NCBI GenBank assembly: GCA_028710485.1
Contig: JAQTTZ010000008.1
Coordinates: forward strand, 1-64,000
Reading direction: 5' to 3'
Source of the DNA: Bacteriovorax sp.
GTDB lineage: Bacteria; Bdellovibrionota; Bacteriovoracia; Bacteriovoracales; Bacteriovoracaceae
Length of the DNA: 64,000 nucleotides
The position numbers were made by a program, and so were the translations under genes. The notes under the pieces were generated by a model. It had not been told where the DNA came from. It searched no databases and saw only the letters and a program-made list of their open reading frames with translations. Below are positions 6,396 through 64,000 of the stretch, piece after piece. Position 1 is the first letter of the stretch; each line of letters opens with the position of its first letter.

Positions 6396-7229
6396 GTGTC
6401 TAATACGAAACAGCGAATTATTTCAGCTCTAATTATGGCAATCCTAGTGGTTCTCTGTGTTTTTTTTGGCAAAATGCCAACCTTAATTCTGGTTATGCTC
6501 GTTGGGATTTTATGTATTGACGAGTTGCTTGTTAATTTTGCAGAACTGACTCGTAAAAGTTTTTTTTATAAATATATTATTTTCTTTTTTACTCTTTTCT
6601 TCTTGTTTATTAATGTTTTTTTTGAAGCCAAACTATCACGCAGTTTTTTTACAATCTCTGCGCTCTTTTTAAATATTTTTTTAATATACTATCTTTTTAA
6701 AATTCCTCTTCAAGAAAATTTCATGAAGAAGAGCACTGAGAAGAATCCGGGACTTTTAAGCGTAATCGCTATTTTGCCAATTGTATCTTTTGGGATTCAT
6801 TTTGAAACTGATCACTGGCGCCATATTCTTGGTTTGTTATTAATTGTGACAATCAGTATGGATACTGGGGCTTGGTTTTTTGGCAAAAATTTTGGGAGAG
6901 TAAAGCTTTGGCCGGAAATAAGTCCTAAAAAAACAGTCGAAGGTTTTGTTGGAGGAATGTTTACGACAGCACTACTCGGAACGCTTGCTTGGCATTATTT
7001 GTTTAATGATTACCAATGGTATTACTCGGTTATTTTCGCTGCTTGTGGAGCCGTTTCTCAAGTCGGTGATTTAGTTCAATCTAAAATAAAAAGAGAGTTT
7101 GGAATCAAAGATAGCTCCAATCTCATACCAGGTCATGGTGGTATTTATGATCGCATCGACAGCCTCATCTTTCTGTCGCCTTTTTTCGTGTTTGTTGTAA
7201 AATATCTAGGACGACATCTTCCTCTCTAA
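6396..7229 (+). CDS. cdsA: Phosphatidate cytidylyltransferase
   Basis: CDP-diacylglycerol synthase, converting phosphatidic acid and CTP to CDP-diacylglycerol, the substrate of pssA a few genes downstream. It is a multi-spanning membrane protein (277 residues). The CdsA signature lies in MDTGAWFFGKNFGR followed by SPKKTVEG, and the C-terminal GDLVQSKIKREFGIKD...PGHGGIYDRID block is clear. The start is GTG, two bases after the uppS stop. Confidence 0.95.
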   Translation: MSNTKQRIISALIMAILVVLCVFFGKMPTLILVMLVGILCIDELLVNFAELTRKSFFYKYIIFFFTLFFLFINVFFEAKLSRSFFTISALFLNIFLIYYLFKIPLQENFMKKSTEKNPGLLSVIAILPIVSFGIHFETDHWRHILGLLLIVTISMDTGAWFFGKNFGRVKLWPEISPKKTVEGFVGGMFTTALLGTLAWHYLFNDYQWYYSVIFAACGAVSQVGDLVQSKIKREFGIKDSSNLIPGHGGIYDRIDSLIFLSPFFVFVVKYLGRHLPL

Positions 7230-7251: not shown

Positions 7252-8826
7252 ATGCTATTAGAAAAAATTGCTGTTTTTATATTATTTTTAGGACCTTTAG
7301 TTTTTTTCCACGAACTAGGGCACTTTTTATTTGCGAGACTCTTTGGCGTACGAGTTGAAGTTTTTTCAATTGGATTTGGGCCAAAGTTATTTAAGAAAAA
7401 ATTTGGTAATACGGAGTATGCTGTATCTGCTATTCCTCTTGGTGGATATGTAAAAATGTATGGTGATGATCCTTTTACTAAGGATGATGTTCCAGAATCA
7501 GAAAGACATCATAGTTTTACTCATCAGGGAAAGTTTGCACGCTTTTGCATCGTCTTGGGTGGACCTCTCGCAAATTTTATTTTAGCCTTTTTTATTTTTT
7601 TCTCGCTTTTAATTTCAGGTGAACGTATTCCAGAGATTAAGTTAGGAGCAATTCCTGTTGAGTCGTCTATTTATAAGGCAGGGCTTCGCACTGGAGATAT
7701 TCTTTTAAAAGTTAATGATACTGAAGTTTATAACCCGACTGATTTAATGGTTGAGGGGAAAGGCGAAATTAAAAGTATTACTGTTAAGCGAGCGGATCAA
7801 CCAGTTGTTCTGGCCGTAGACTTCAAAGGGGATAAATTCTTTGAAGACATTTTGAAATATCCTCCATTTTTAAGAAAGCCTTTTTTAATTGATTCTAATT
7901 CTCATCGCTATTTGATGAGTTTCGAAAAAGATAAAGTAAATCTTAAAGATTCGATTGAAGAAATGAGCATGAGAACTAGCACGAAATTTGCTTATCTCTA
8001 CCCAGTGCTTCCCGGTCAGGATATCTCGAGCGAAGAACTTAAAATTGATATGAAATCCGGTATAGAGGTTCCACTAAATTTTACAGATTTAAAATCGATG
8101 CTGATAGGCTTAGATTCAAAAGGATTTAAGACTATCGATCTTATGGTCCGCAGTGTGAACATGAATTCACCAGCGGATAAAGTTGGTATCCGGGAGAACG
8201 ATGTTTTTGTCAGTCTTGAAGGTGAAAAAGTTTATAGCTTTGAAGATTTAAGAACAAGACTTCAAACTATTGAGAAGAAGTCTGTAAATGTCGAAATTTG
8301 GAATAAAGGGCAAGTTAAGAAGTTAGTTGTCACTCCAGATGTGACAATACAAGAAGGAAAAACTCTTCGCTTGTTAGGTGTTTATAGTTATATCGAAATT
8401 CAGAAAATTAATTTTGTTCACACAAAGTCAAAGGGCTTATTTGGATCGATTAAGTATTCTGTGATCCGCACTTGGGATTCTGTTAAGAAAACCATCGATG
8501 GATTTGTAAAACTTTTAACTAATCAGATTTCATTAAAAACGATTGGTGGACCGCTTGCGATTGGTAAAGTGGCGCACGATTCCTTTAATACATCGTTGTC
8601 GTACTTCTTTCAGTTAATGGCCCTGATCTCTGTTAATTTGGGTGTTATCAATTTATTTCCCATTCCAGTTCTAGATGGTGGGCATATTCTCTTTATAGCT
8701 CTTGAGCTTATAAATGGAGGACCATTATCGCGCAGAAAAATGGAAATCGCACAGCAAGTCGGTTTATCAATTCTACTGATGTTGATGGTGGGAGCAATTT
8801 TTAATGATGTAAGCAGGTTTTTTTAG
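7252..8826 (+). CDS. rseP: RseP-type site-2 zinc metalloprotease
   Basis: Intramembrane zinc protease of the M50 family, which cleaves anti-sigma factors and leftover signal peptides. The zinc motif HELGH is at residues 20-24 in the first membrane segment, and the third ligand region NLFPIPVLDGGHI is near residue 470. Two PDZ-like regions lie between the membrane segments, roughly 115-190 and 290-370. At 524 residues it is longer than the E. coli protein (450) because of an enlarged periplasmic insert. Its stop overlaps the GTG start of tsaB by one base. Confidence 0.93.
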   Translation: MLLEKIAVFILFLGPLVFFHELGHFLFARLFGVRVEVFSIGFGPKLFKKKFGNTEYAVSAIPLGGYVKMYGDDPFTKDDVPESERHHSFTHQGKFARFCIVLGGPLANFILAFFIFFSLLISGERIPEIKLGAIPVESSIYKAGLRTGDILLKVNDTEVYNPTDLMVEGKGEIKSITVKRADQPVVLAVDFKGDKFFEDILKYPPFLRKPFLIDSNSHRYLMSFEKDKVNLKDSIEEMSMRTSTKFAYLYPVLPGQDISSEELKIDMKSGIEVPLNFTDLKSMLIGLDSKGFKTIDLMVRSVNMNSPADKVGIRENDVFVSLEGEKVYSFEDLRTRLQTIEKKSVNVEIWNKGQVKKLVVTPDVTIQEGKTLRLLGVYSYIEIQKINFVHTKSKGLFGSIKYSVIRTWDSVKKTIDGFVKLLTNQISLKTIGGPLAIGKVAHDSFNTSLSYFFQLMALISVNLGVINLFPIPVLDGGHILFIALELINGGPLSRRKMEIAQQVGLSILLMLMVGAIFNDVSRFF

Positions 8827-9410
8827 TGCACTCTTTGTTTGTAGACAGCACGTCGGGATTAGTTATTGGACTCCTTGATTCAAATTATTCTTGGGTCGAA
8901 TATATGAGTCTCGATGAAAAAAAACCTTCGGAAATTATTCATTTTGAAATCTTTAATCTCTTAAAAAAATACAGCCTTAATCTTGCAGATATGCAGTGTT
9001 TTGTTTCGAATGGGCCTGGCTCATATACTGGAATGAGATTGAGCGAAGGCCTGGCCCAAGTTTTCGAGCTTGTGCATATGCCAGTCTATTCATTTTATCA
9101 TTTTGATGTTCCAAGATTAAGTGGTGTTCCAAGAGGCTTTTGGGCCACTAATGCTTTTAAAGGTCAGGTTTTTGTTTATAATTGGAATGGAGATGAAGTA
9201 GAAAAGCATCTGCTTAATAAGGACGCTTTTTTTATCGAAGAGGAAAAATTGGGTTTTACTCTCGATACCAGTGATCCAATATTTTCAAATCTAGTATCGA
9301 CCAAAAGCTTGATTAAGAACAAGGCTCCTGAAATATTTTCAAAGGTCGAAGCACTTAAATTAAGGAAAGCGCCTTACTATTTTAGGTCACTTGATGAGGA
9401 ATTTCATTAG
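8826..9410 (+). CDS. tsaB: TsaB-like tRNA threonylcarbamoyladenosine biosynthesis protein
   Basis: Partner of TsaD and TsaE in making t6A37 in tRNAs that read ANN codons. The N-terminal FVDST and the SNGPGSYTGMRLS motif (about residues 62-74) match the TsaB family, an inactive ASKHA-fold homologue of TsaD. At 194 residues it is slightly short, and the C-terminal half is poorly conserved. Start is GTG overlapping the rseP stop. TsaD and TsaE are not in this window. Confidence 0.82.
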   Translation: MHSLFVDSTSGLVIGLLDSNYSWVEYMSLDEKKPSEIIHFEIFNLLKKYSLNLADMQCFVSNGPGSYTGMRLSEGLAQVFELVHMPVYSFYHFDVPRLSGVPRGFWATNAFKGQVFVYNWNGDEVEKHLLNKDAFFIEEEKLGFTLDTSDPIFSNLVSTKSLIKNKAPEIFSKVEALKLRKAPYYFRSLDEEFH

Positions 9411-9412
9411 TT

Positions 9413-10072
9413 ATGTTGAAATCTTATTTACCTGCTAAATTCAATACTTTTGCTGCAATTTTATTTGTTTTATTTTGGCTGCTCGGTTTTTATAAAATCT
9501 TATCCATCCTGATTGTTGCCTATATTGTTCTTTATGTAGTTTTGCGAAAAAGTAGAAATGACTTTCGCGATGACCCTATCAGTACCAGAGGAGTAATCTT
9601 TTCTCCGGCCAATGGTAAAGTAGTGCATATTGAGCATAATGTGTCTCATGGTTTTTATGGAGACCAATTAATTGAAATTCAAATTATGATTCCTTGGTGG
9701 AAAGAGATGGGAATATTTCTTCCACTATCGTGTGAGATAAAAAACCTCTTGGTTCTAAAAGGTCAGTCTTTTTTCAGATATCTTAAAGCAGTTGAGGTTC
9801 TCGGGAGTAAAGAGGGAAAAGGCGTTAGCTTGGCCCTTGATAACCGCGGGGAGAGTATTGGGCTCACTTTTTTTAAGTGTAAGCTTGGACTTTGGCCAGA
9901 ACTGATGGTTATGCCTGGAGATAGGGGAGGAAGAAGAGTCAATATTGGTTACTTTCCTTTTGGTGGAACGGTGATGCTTTATTTACCCAAAAAGTATGAG
10001 ATACTAGTTAAAACTAACGATGAAGTGAATGCTGGCGAAACAATTTTCGCAGTGGTTCCGGACAATATTTAA
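9413..10072 (+). CDS. Phosphatidylserine-decarboxylase-like protein lacking catalytic residues
   Basis: A 219-residue protein with the architecture of small class PSD proenzymes: two N-terminal membrane segments (about 10-45), FSPANGKV at 63-70 (family: SPADGKV) and a C-terminal FGGTVMLYLP...EVNAGETIF block (from 183). In active enzymes this last block contains a Gly-Ser (FGSR or GGST) at which the chain self-cleaves to form the pyruvoyl cofactor. Here FGGT has no serine, and the Asp/His motif is replaced by IFLPLSCEIK. I infer it cannot self-process. It lies 11 bases before pssA, exactly where an active psd usually sits; an intact psd is at 60612. It may bind lipid or regulate PssA. Confidence 0.78.
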   Translation: MLKSYLPAKFNTFAAILFVLFWLLGFYKILSILIVAYIVLYVVLRKSRNDFRDDPISTRGVIFSPANGKVVHIEHNVSHGFYGDQLIEIQIMIPWWKEMGIFLPLSCEIKNLLVLKGQSFFRYLKAVEVLGSKEGKGVSLALDNRGESIGLTFFKCKLGLWPELMVMPGDRGGRRVNIGYFPFGGTVMLYLPKKYEILVKTNDEVNAGETIFAVVPDNI

Positions 10073-10083
10073 AAGGCACTGTT

Positions 10084-10860
10084 ATGTTAAATACTCCAAG
10101 ACGATTAGCATTTTTTCTTCCCAATACATTTACTGCGCTAAATATGGCCTGTGGTTTTTTTTCAATTATTTTAGGTTGGAAAGGAGAGTTTTACCCTGCT
10201 TCAATGCTTTTGCTCCTGGGAGCTATTTTTGATTCAGTGGATGGCAGAGTTGCAAGAATGACTCATACTCAATCGGCTTTCGGCGAGCAATTTGATTCAA
10301 TTTCAGATGTTGTGACATTTGGGGTGGCTCCGGCCTTTTTAGTTTACAATAAGTTCTTTTTTGATTTGGGGAGAATTGGTCTCATCACTTCATTTGTGTT
10401 TTTATTGTGTGGAGCTTTAAGGCTCGCTCGCTTTAATGCCAATATCGACAAAGTAAGTTCAGATTTTTTTCAAGGTTTGCCCATTCCAAGTGGAGCTTTG
10501 GCCCTTGCAGGTCTAACTCTTTTCACTTTGGAGTACCCTGAAGTAATGGAAATTTCACCATTTGTTTTTGTCGCTTATGTTCTCTTTTTTGCTTTTTTGA
10601 TGATTTCCAATATTCCATTTAATTCGTTTAAAAAATCTGAGTGGGTTCGCTCACATAAAAAGCGTGTTCTCTTTATTATATTTCTGGTCATGATCCTCAC
10701 TTTTGTTAAAGAACAGATCATGATTGGTCTGATTATCAATACGTATGTTTTTGCTTCGTTACTTTATTTTGTTAAAAATAGAGGTGCTCTTCAGGATATG
10801 TTCCAGTGGAATAGTGAAGATGATGAAGAGAGCGGAGAAAGCCAGAATGACCAACATTAA
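10084..10860 (+). CDS. pssA: CDP-diacylglycerol--serine O-phosphatidyltransferase
   Basis: Membrane phosphatidylserine synthase of the CDP-alcohol phosphotransferase family, using CDP-diacylglycerol (from CdsA) and serine. The signature D-G-x2-A-R-x8-G-x3-D-x3-D reads DGRVAR, eight residues, G, EQFDSISD at about residues 52-73, with all key residues intact. About seven or eight membrane segments follow. The 258-residue length fits the Bacillus-type PssA rather than the E. coli soluble type. The C-terminus is acidic (SEDDEESGES). Confidence 0.94.
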   Translation: MLNTPRRLAFFLPNTFTALNMACGFFSIILGWKGEFYPASMLLLLGAIFDSVDGRVARMTHTQSAFGEQFDSISDVVTFGVAPAFLVYNKFFFDLGRIGLITSFVFLLCGALRLARFNANIDKVSSDFFQGLPIPSGALALAGLTLFTLEYPEVMEISPFVFVAYVLFFAFLMISNIPFNSFKKSEWVRSHKKRVLFIIFLVMILTFVKEQIMIGLIINTYVFASLLYFVKNRGALQDMFQWNSEDDEESGESQNDQH

Positions 10861-11824
10861 GAGTATTTTATCACTTTTATTGTTAACAGTTTTTTTTCAA
10901 CAAGCGAGTGCAACTGATTTAGATCAAGTTGTTTCTGGAGGCGATGTTGAGGACTCTTTAGCAACCAGCAAGGCAACAGAATCCAGCCCTTATATTATTC
11001 ACAATGCCGAAGGCGAAATTGATAATCAAAAGATAAAGGCTAATGCCCAGCCAGATTTCATGTTTAATGAGCACCCAAAAGAAGTTTCGGTAAAAGACGA
11101 TTCAAAAGCTAAATTCCAAGATGTAGGTTACACCCCTCCTGGAAGTTTTGAGTCCAAAGAAAATTATATCGAAATAGACAAGAAGGCGATGGTTGCTGAT
11201 TTTAGAAAGCAATCTAGCGGCGCTATCAATATTACATTCATTAAAAATGATTTTAATTATGAATCAGCTAATGATGTTATTAATAAAACTATTTCTGAGG
11301 GCTACAAACATGTGAAGGGAGGAGCTCTTTATATTCGTAGTGATCAATACTTCTCTCGCAAAGATTTTATAAATCCATTTTGGAGTCTAGGCGGCGGCTT
11401 AGGCTATAATAGTGGACGCGGCATCTTCGTCACTGGTGAACGCAGTGATACAACCTTTAAGTTATGGGAAATTCCTGTGGACTTAGGCTTGGGGGTAGAA
11501 ATTCCAATTTCTCATTGGTTTAAAGTTTCAGCGGCTGCTGGCCCGAGTGTGACTGCTCTATATCAGAATCGCAACGACCTTTTGGCGGGCGAGAAAGGAA
11601 GAAATAAAATGCAAGTGAGCTATGGTCAGTTTGCTAATGCTCAATTTAAAATTAACTTGAGTGGCTTTAGTGCAGATACTGCTTACACTCTTTTCACTGA
11701 GAGCAAAATCACGAATCTTTATATGAATCTTGAAGCTCGTTACCAGAACTATCGAAACTTTCAAGATGAGATAAAAATTTCTGGAACATCTATTGGGATT
11801 GGTTTCACCTTTGAATACTTATAA
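10847..11824 (+). CDS. Secreted protein with C-terminal beta-barrel-like region, unknown function
   Basis: Not recognised as a named family. I take the ATG at 10847, inside the pssA 3' end, because it gives a proper signal peptide (KSILSLLLLTVFFQQASA) and follows GGAG; an upstream in-frame start at 10745 would spoil it. The mature protein has a disordered N-terminal part to about residue 110. The C-terminal part has alternating Gly/aromatic strands (FWSLGGGLGYNSGRG, WFKVSAAAGPSV) ending in GIGFTFEYL. The final aromatic-hydrophobic strand suggests an outer-membrane barrel. The gene overlaps both neighbours, so it is translationally linked to pssA and truA. Confidence 0.7.
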   Translation: MTNIKSILSLLLLTVFFQQASATDLDQVVSGGDVEDSLATSKATESSPYIIHNAEGEIDNQKIKANAQPDFMFNEHPKEVSVKDDSKAKFQDVGYTPPGSFESKENYIEIDKKAMVADFRKQSSGAINITFIKNDFNYESANDVINKTISEGYKHVKGGALYIRSDQYFSRKDFINPFWSLGGGLGYNSGRGIFVTGERSDTTFKLWEIPVDLGLGVEIPISHWFKVSAAAGPSVTALYQNRNDLLAGEKGRNKMQVSYGQFANAQFKINLSGFSADTAYTLFTESKITNLYMNLEARYQNYRNFQDEIKISGTSIGIGFTFEYL

Positions 11825-60611: not shown

Positions 60612-61520
60612 ATGGATATCAATTTTTATAATCGTTTAACTAATTCATTAGAAAAAGAAAAAGTTTACGGCGATAAATTTGTGGAGTGGCTATACCTTAC
60701 TGAATCGGGCAAGGCTTTTTCGCATATTGTTTGCAAGGCTCCAATCAGTAAACTTTACGGTGCATTACAAGATTCCTTTATCAGCAAAAATAAAATCGCG
60801 CCCTTTATCGAAAATTTTAAGATTCCGATGGAAGATTACTTGCCGCAAGATGGCCGTAATAGTGAAGCGCCTTACTCAAGTTTTAATCAATTTTTTATTC
60901 GCAAATTTAAGGCCGGAAAACGCCCCTTTGTCGAAGGTCCAAATGAGTTGGCGGCCTTCAGTGAAGCTCGCTATTACGGGTATAGCTCGATTGGCGATGA
61001 TGAAAAAGTTCCAGTCAAAGGCTCGTTCTTGAAACCTCGTGAACTTCTTAGCAATCCAGCTTGGGAAAATACTTTTCATGATGGCCCACTTTTATTGGCG
61101 AGACTTTGTCCTGTTGATTATCACCGCTTTCACTATCCAGACGACGGTATAATTCTCGATGACTACCGCATCTCTGGGTTACTCCATTCTGTAAATCCCT
61201 TGGCCCTAAAGGCTAAACAAGACATTCTGATAACCAATGAAAGACATGTCACCATCTTAGAAACGAAAAATTTTGGTAAACTTGCCTATATAGAAGTCGG
61301 GGCCATTTGTGTTGGCAAAATTGTTCAATCAAAACCATTATTCAAAGGTCAAACATTTTCGCGCGGCGAAGAGAAAGGATATTTTCTTTTTGGTGGATCA
61401 ACAGTCATTGTGATTGGAGAAAAAGGAAAGTGGACTCCAAGCCAAGATATTCTTGATTACACCAAAAAAGGAATTGAGACTTATCTTCATCTGGGAATGA
61501 CCGTGGCCAAAAGAGGATAA
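60612..61520 (+). CDS. psd: Phosphatidylserine decarboxylase, intact proenzyme
   Basis: Makes phosphatidylethanolamine from phosphatidylserine. The ATG at 60612 follows GAGGGTAG; an earlier frame start adds residues without family match. The 302-residue proenzyme has FNQFFIRKFKAGKRP, RLCPVDYHRFHYPDDG (catalytic Asp/His), GLLHSVNPLAL and, near the C-terminus, FGGSTV with the self-cleavage Gly-Ser. It contrasts with the serine-lacking paralogue at 9413. Convergent with the EEP gene, overlapping by 34 bases. Confidence 0.93.
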   Translation: MDINFYNRLTNSLEKEKVYGDKFVEWLYLTESGKAFSHIVCKAPISKLYGALQDSFISKNKIAPFIENFKIPMEDYLPQDGRNSEAPYSSFNQFFIRKFKAGKRPFVEGPNELAAFSEARYYGYSSIGDDEKVPVKGSFLKPRELLSNPAWENTFHDGPLLLARLCPVDYHRFHYPDDGIILDDYRISGLLHSVNPLALKAKQDILITNERHVTILETKNFGKLAYIEVGAICVGKIVQSKPLFKGQTFSRGEEKGYFLFGGSTVIVIGEKGKWTPSQDILDYTKKGIETYLHLGMTVAKRG

Positions 61521-63442: not shown

Positions 63443-63682
63443 ATGAAAACATTATTAGCTCTAGTATTGATCGTATCTGCTGTTTCTTTTGGCTGTTCAA
63501 AAAAAGAAGAAGCTACAACTGAAGCTGCACCTGCTGCTGCAACAACTGAAACAACTACAACTACTACAACTACTGAAGCTGCACCTGCTGCTGCTCCAGC
63601 TGCTGGTACTGAAGCTGCTCCAGCTGCTCCTGCTGCTAACACTGAAGCTGCTCCTGCTGCTCCAGCTCCAGCTGCACACTAA
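63443..63682 (+). CDS. Small Ala/Thr/Pro-rich repeat lipoprotein
   Basis: A 79-residue lipoprotein: signal with lipobox SFGC (LLALVLIVSAVSFGC), then SKKEE and a low-complexity tail with repeated TEAAPAA units and a run of eight Thr. The tail is probably extended and may span the periplasm or peptidoglycan. Strong AAGGAG ribosome site, own promoter and terminator suggest high, independent expression. The GCT-rich coding run is unlike its AT-rich surroundings. Confidence 0.85.
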   Translation: MKTLLALVLIVSAVSFGCSKKEEATTEAAPAAATTETTTTTTTTEAAPAAAPAAGTEAAPAAPAANTEAAPAAPAPAAH

Positions 63683-63722
63683 TTATTTAAATCGCTCTTA
63701 TAGAGTGTTTGGTAATATAATG

Positions 63723-63746
63723 AAGGCCTCGAAAGAGGCCTTTATT
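63723..63746 (+). terminator. Intrinsic terminator after the repeat lipoprotein
   Basis: AAGGCCTC, loop GAAA, GAGGCCTT then TTATT: a stable GNRA-looped stem with a short T-rich tail. It can also serve the convergent gene on the minus strand. Confidence 0.82.
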
Positions 63747-63769
63747 ATTTCTAGGGTCCAAGTTTTTTC

Positions 63770-64000
63770 TTAGCCGATAAATCCATGCTGATCTAGCATC
63801 TCTTGTATAAGCTCAATAAATTTTCTATTAATGTCTTTATTTTCTGGTGAATCTTCACAGCACTGGAGATAGCCCAGCATTTTGGGGAATGGCGTTTTTC
63901 GCTGATTTTCAAAAAGCCAGTTTTGAAATAAAGTAATAGCTTCAAGCCAATCAAATAAATTAAAGTCAGATCGGTCTACTACATAAAAGAATTGTTCAAT
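63770..64000 (-). CDS. Partial gene, C-terminal 76 residues of an unidentified protein
   Basis: An open frame runs from the window edge to a TAA at 63770-63772 on the minus strand. The visible part is helical (FDWLEAITLFQNWLFE, NRKFIELIQEMLDQHGF) with two adjacent Cys. The W/L spacing faintly recalls the N-terminal helices of the SpecificRecomb (Gcr) family, but that part would not be expected next to a stop, so I leave it unnamed. The 5' part is outside the window. Confidence 0.5.
   Translation of the reverse strand: MEQFFYVVDRSDFNLFDWLEAITLFQNWLFENQRKTPFPKMLGYLQCCEDSPENKDINRKFIELIQEMLDQHGFIG

Follow-up and report, generated by a model that had tools for sequence, protein, structure and literature searches.

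Why should a bacterial lineage keep, directly in front of its phosphatidylserine synthase gene, a relative of phosphatidylserine decarboxylase (PSD) that has no serine from which to form the pyruvoyl group? This question is raised by psdL, a frame of 219 amino acids with an ATG start (positions 9413..10072, + strand) in the window, i.e., the 64,000 nucleotides of Bacteriovorax sp. DNA that were analysed. An 11-bp gap separates psdL from pssA (10084..10860, + strand), which encodes a 258-residue CDP-diacylglycerol-serine O-phosphatidyltransferase passing the TIGR00473 cut-off (136.2 bits versus 107). The first-pass annotation had called the two genes fused, but they are merely adjacent. On the other side, and on the same strand, psdL follows after 2 bp a tsaB-like gene (8826..9410), assigned by a weak TIGR03725 match and by synteny in relatives. 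The same tightly packed run contains, also on the + strand, a cdsA-like gene for CDP-diacylglycerol synthase (6396-7229), whose product would supply the substrate of PssA, and an rseP-like gene (7252-8826). Both of these open reading frames were identified by inspection, and BLAST retrieved rseP from relatives as well. Assigned by inspection with some help from profiles, the whole run reads uppS, cdsA, rseP, tsaB, psdL, pssA, a gene for an outer-membrane barrel, truA and tig. Promoter and terminator scans gave signals no better than those in shuffled sequence. The open reading frame that follows pssA (10745-11824) is related, though below cut-off, to outer-membrane beta-barrels of the Bd0486 family. 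As annotated, it overlaps the 3' end of pssA, and frames resembling it also follow pssA in several other genomes of the family. A low-complexity frame rich in Leu, Lys and Gln at 63489-63773 is probably a mechanical reading frame in repeat-rich DNA.

The psdL protein is homologous over nearly its full length to the small-class PSDs (PRK05305/NF003678, TIGR00164-type; phosphatidylserine or archaetidylserine decarboxylases), which are of similar size. Residues 14-214 match NF003678 with an E-value of 7.5e-15 and 54.8 bits, the best score obtained, although it amounts to about a quarter of the cut-off of 225 and lies below every NCBIfam equivalog cut-off. PF02666 is matched by the C-terminus only (34.4 bits; Pfam cut-off 22), and profile-profile comparison with hhalign aligns psdL with intact small-class PSDs over 210 columns at 99.7% probability. 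Common to both are a hydrophobic, membrane-hairpin-like N-terminal segment (residues ~10-44 in psdL), the SPxxGxV motif (SPANGKV, residues 64-70), a C-terminal block of the form FG.....LP...V..G..V..GeT.A and the position directly 5' of pssA. The earlier description of psdL as retaining a membrane anchor, SPA(N)GKV and the C-terminal beta block is borne out by these comparisons. A sequence search of the PDB with the psdL protein of the window gave no match, and a deep psdL profile gave weak matches only, including EIIA-Glc and biotinyl/lipoyl-carrier domains, which hint at a resemblance of fold and not at homology. An AlphaFold2 model built on a shallow alignment of 12 sequences was unusable (pLDDT 36).

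In the E. coli PSD, Ser254 is both the nucleophile and the pyruvoyl precursor, and the S254A variant stays uncleaved; His144 is required for decarboxylation, while Asp90 and Asp142 can replace one another in maturation (PMC7952604). The cleavage motif of psdL reads YFPFGGTVMLYLP, and alignment with intact small-class PSDs (IRFGSR..DIYLP) places Gly185 of the FGGT motif (residues 183-186) in the column of the pyruvoyl-forming serine. Its codon (9965-9967) lies in a degenerate self-cleavage site at 9962..9973 on the + strand, where codons 184-187 encode Gly-Gly-Thr-Val. The His column of the HVNR motif is occupied by Met99 and the Asp column of SPADG by Asn67. The first-pass annotation had noted both FGGT in place of Gly-Ser and the missing Asp/His motif, and the alignment agrees on each point. 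The same holds across the family: among 98 full-length sequences, Gly occupies the serine column in 97 and Ala in the remaining one, compared with Ser in each of the 26 relatives that belong to other families of the phylum. The next residue is Arg in 26/26 intact proteins and, in the family, mainly Thr (60), Lys (14), Ser (7) or Ile (7). SPADG retains its Asp in 3/98 sequences, the His column is His in 6/98, each time without the following Asn-Arg, and the HVNR Asn is found in none; the Arg of this motif persists in five and is lost in 93. Conservation has likewise disappeared from the Arg-Arg and Asn-Glu pairs and from the Arg after the serine. A frame or alignment artefact was rejected, as the reading frame is open and the cleavage site can be placed without ambiguity in nearly all sequences. 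Judged from these alignments, the catalytic activity of psdL is almost certainly lost.

Relatives of psdL were searched for in 369 genomes of the Bdellovibrionota, 129 of which belong to the Bacteriovoracaceae, the family of the window (G000-G128). They were detected in 142 genomes, 115 of them in this family, and another five (G017, G019, G072, G110 and G111) were recovered by a profile search and by inspecting the surroundings of pssA, bringing the family total to 120/129. Of the nine without a detected psdL, four have an unreadable pssA locus (G098, G108, G109 and G112), and in five the gene is cleanly gone, with the tsaB-like gene leading straight into pssA (G058, G064, G059, G060 and G128; loci L229, L231, L232, L233 and L227). 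The five clean absences amount to loss from at most three lineages, and some genera carry very divergent forms; the psdL frames are open in nearly all matches. Wherever the flank could be read in the Bacteriovoracaceae (99/99 loci), psdL immediately precedes pssA on the same strand, and all 26 relatives from other families carry an intact small-class PSD in exactly this position. The order rseP-tsaB-psdL-pssA-truA is conserved as a whole. The proposal that a serine-less PSD relative occupies the slot of an active psd beside pssA, and is conserved there, is strongly supported. By synteny, psdL is the ortholog of the small-class PSD that precedes pssA elsewhere in the phylum. Its initial description as a dead paralogue is apt as to "dead" but calls for caution as to "paralogue", the second PSD of the genome being a homolog of another class.

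Two observations would have contradicted the first-pass annotation, a conserved Ser at the cleavage site and relatives in the family that still encode the intact motif, and neither was made. In a tree calculated without the catalytic columns, the family separates from the intact proteins on one branch with a support of 100, so that a single change suffices to explain the loss of the serine; the branching order inside the family is unsure because of long branches. Intact motifs occur only outside the family, and the cleavage site has Gly, so that psdL is not the product of a recent decay. On the evidence of alignment and tree, the loss is a single ancient event that became fixed across the Bacteriovoracaceae. 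Among twelve members of the window's genus, Nei-Gojobori dN/dS values relative to the three closest relatives are 0.03-0.05 for psdL and 0.03-0.08 for pssA. Taken over all pairs, the median is 0.07 for psdL, 0.06 for pssA and 0.14 for tsaB, with synonymous sites partly saturated. Low dN/dS and fixation across the family rule out a recent pseudogene. psdL also bears constraints of its own that are absent from the active enzymes: Gly169-Asp170, part of a PGDRG motif (residues 168-172), is present in 98/98 family sequences, while only 6/26 intact relatives have Asp at position 170, and Pro182 is conserved at 85% by weight. Over the whole family, the divergence of psdL is much more rapid than that of pssA, and in a mirror-tree comparison of distances, psdL was no more tightly coupled to pssA than to tsaB (partial r 0.34 versus 0.44). 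Taken as a whole, the missing catalytic residues, the homology retained at the level of the fold and the long purifying selection strongly support the classification of psdL as a pseudoenzyme.

The source genome has two PF02666 matches above cut-off, psdL and a large-class, PRK00723-like psd at 60612..61520 on the + strand, whereas most genomes outside the family show a single match among the matches listed. The large-class PSDs, with the E. coli enzyme (PDB 6L06/7CNW) as reference, belong to the same superfamily as psdL, which carries PF02666 at its C-terminus, but they form another class and retain the Ser, the His and the DYHR motif that psdL lacks. The gene at 60612 had been described as a complete psd. 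This is correct for its FGGSTV and DYHRFH motifs and less so for the SPADG position, where it has Glu instead of Asp (FSEAR); the rest of its active site is intact. It is expected to be active by analogy with the E. coli enzyme, of which the D90A and D90N variants stay active (PMC7952604). The same Glu is common to the large-class PSDs of the family (loci L175-L204), whereas other PSDs have SPADG, among them the Fusobacteriota and Bacteroidota relatives that were looked at, such as those of Ilyobacter and Aureibacter. Genes like the one at 60612 were found in 120/125 family genomes, including the five without psdL. They were not found in G024, G069, G074, G106 and G121, where psdL is equally serine-less, and these absences are uncertain because the genomes are drafts. 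In all 26 hand-tabulated pairs located on one contig, the large psd lies on the same strand as psdL-pssA and 47-142 kb downstream, suggesting that both genes are vertically inherited. A second, more divergent large-class gene occurs in G028, G048, G050, G051, G052, G109, G120 and G122. The decarboxylation of phosphatidylserine is probably carried out by the large-class enzyme encoded elsewhere in the genome.

The history that we favour would start from a small-class PSD encoded directly 5' of pssA, as in the other families of the phylum. In an ancestor of the Bacteriovoracaceae, another PSD, of the large class and of separate origin, would have taken over decarboxylation and made the small enzyme redundant, which would then have lost catalysis once; gain of the large-class gene before loss of the small-class activity is the simplest order of events. 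The pyruvoyl-forming Ser, the catalytic His region and the Asp disappeared, while the membrane-anchored core stayed. Today psdL would be a single-chain, membrane-anchored accessory protein that is presumably not self-cleaved and is made together with PssA. Most likely it would bind phosphatidylserine and/or PssA at the membrane and thereby scaffold or regulate the synthesis of phosphatidylserine, or serve as its hand-over factor. A non-catalytic role is favoured by the nature of what was kept, a folded membrane-anchored core, and of what was lost, self-cleavage and chemistry. That psdL is a non-catalytic, membrane-anchored accessory of phospholipid synthesis near PssA strikes us as an evenly balanced proposition. 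The narrower idea that it acts on PssA as a lipid-sensing regulator or as a scaffold, and thereby sets the flux of phosphatidylserine and phosphatidylethanolamine, is tentative and more doubtful than probable. The roles suggested in the first-pass annotation, a lipid-flux sensor, a PssA chaperone or a lipid-transfer factor, are hypothetical. Two results speak against an obligate PssA chaperone: five genomes keep pssA without psdL, so that PssA is not strictly in need of it, and psdL and pssA show no specific covariation of rates.

The partner of psdL could instead be the large-class PSD, for which it would serve as an activator or substrate-delivery factor. Nearly every genome of the family has the two genes, in a conserved arrangement, and the trypanosomal S-adenosylmethionine decarboxylase, also a pyruvoyl enzyme, is activated by a dead paralogue (PMC5201418, PMC6221367). 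As with psdL, this prozyme is a dead relative of a pyruvoyl decarboxylase, retained in a genome that also encodes an active enzyme; it belongs to an unrelated family, however, and heterodimerises with its own paralogue, while for psdL such a partnership is hypothetical. Inherited heterodimerisation is less expected between PSDs of different classes, the large enzyme persists in the five genomes that lack psdL, and the linkage of the two genes may reflect slow change of gene order, all of which make this an unlikely role. A function in the membrane or envelope unrelated to PssA has a similarly low probability in our view. The rapid family-wide divergence of psdL and the missing psdL-pssA-specific covariation would agree with it, and conservation of the entire rseP-tsaB-psdL-pssA-truA order means that adjacency to pssA, which would then be inherited from an ancestral psd-pssA operon, is not a specific signal. 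Against this, no locus with readable flanks has psdL anywhere but between tsaB and pssA, and nothing points independently to another function.

The remaining explanations concern the protein itself. New catalysis in the old pocket, or non-canonical processing at the Thr or Ser that follows Gly-Gly, would draw on the presence of these residues in 60 and 7 of the 98 sequences, on the FGG-Ser register of the large class and on the new invariant Asp170. About one third of the family, however, has Lys, Ile, Glu, Tyr, Phe, Leu, Met, Gln or Val after Gly-Gly, and no nucleophile is therefore conserved at this position. The rarity of His in its column, and its occurrence there without Asn-Arg, also speaks against chemistry, and Gly169-Asp170 resembles a turn (GD...G) that belongs to the structure of the retained fold, which renders this explanation quite improbable. 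Even less credit is due to the view that psdL is a decaying relic, held in place by operon context through translational coupling and encoding a functionless protein. Clean loss of the gene from as many as three lineages, and its strong divergence in some genera, are what such a relic would produce, but a dN/dS within the genus of 0.03-0.07, as low as that of pssA and half that of tsaB, is not, nor are the open frames, the near-invariant Gly in the serine column and the invariant Gly169-Asp170. The accessory function near PssA accordingly remains our preferred reading.

Compared with the small-class enzymes from which it would derive, psdL has exchanged the cleavage Ser for Gly, replaced the catalytic residues of HVNR and SPADG, dropped the Arg-Arg, Asn-Glu and post-Ser Arg motifs and acquired new constraints. 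Searches of open-access literature found no earlier report of a PSD pseudoenzyme and nothing relevant on PSD in Bdellovibrio or the Bacteriovoracales; our comparison of small-class PSDs covers the Bdellovibrionota, and serine-less forms may exist in other phyla. The best-known examples of pseudoenzymes with control over metabolism are eukaryotic. In the bacterial family studied here, one class of PSD appears to have been replaced by another while the old one was kept, dead, in its original slot before pssA, where it has been under strong selection throughout the history of the family. Genome annotation may call these proteins decarboxylases and thereby assign an activity that is almost certainly lost. 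psdL represents a clean natural experiment on the non-catalytic roles of a PSD, such as binding phosphatidylserine or its synthase, and points to an unstudied, non-enzymatic role in the membrane-lipid synthesis of predatory bacteria. If psdL does regulate or scaffold PssA in a lipid-sensing manner, a dead decarboxylase would now control the step before its own in the pathway that it once served.
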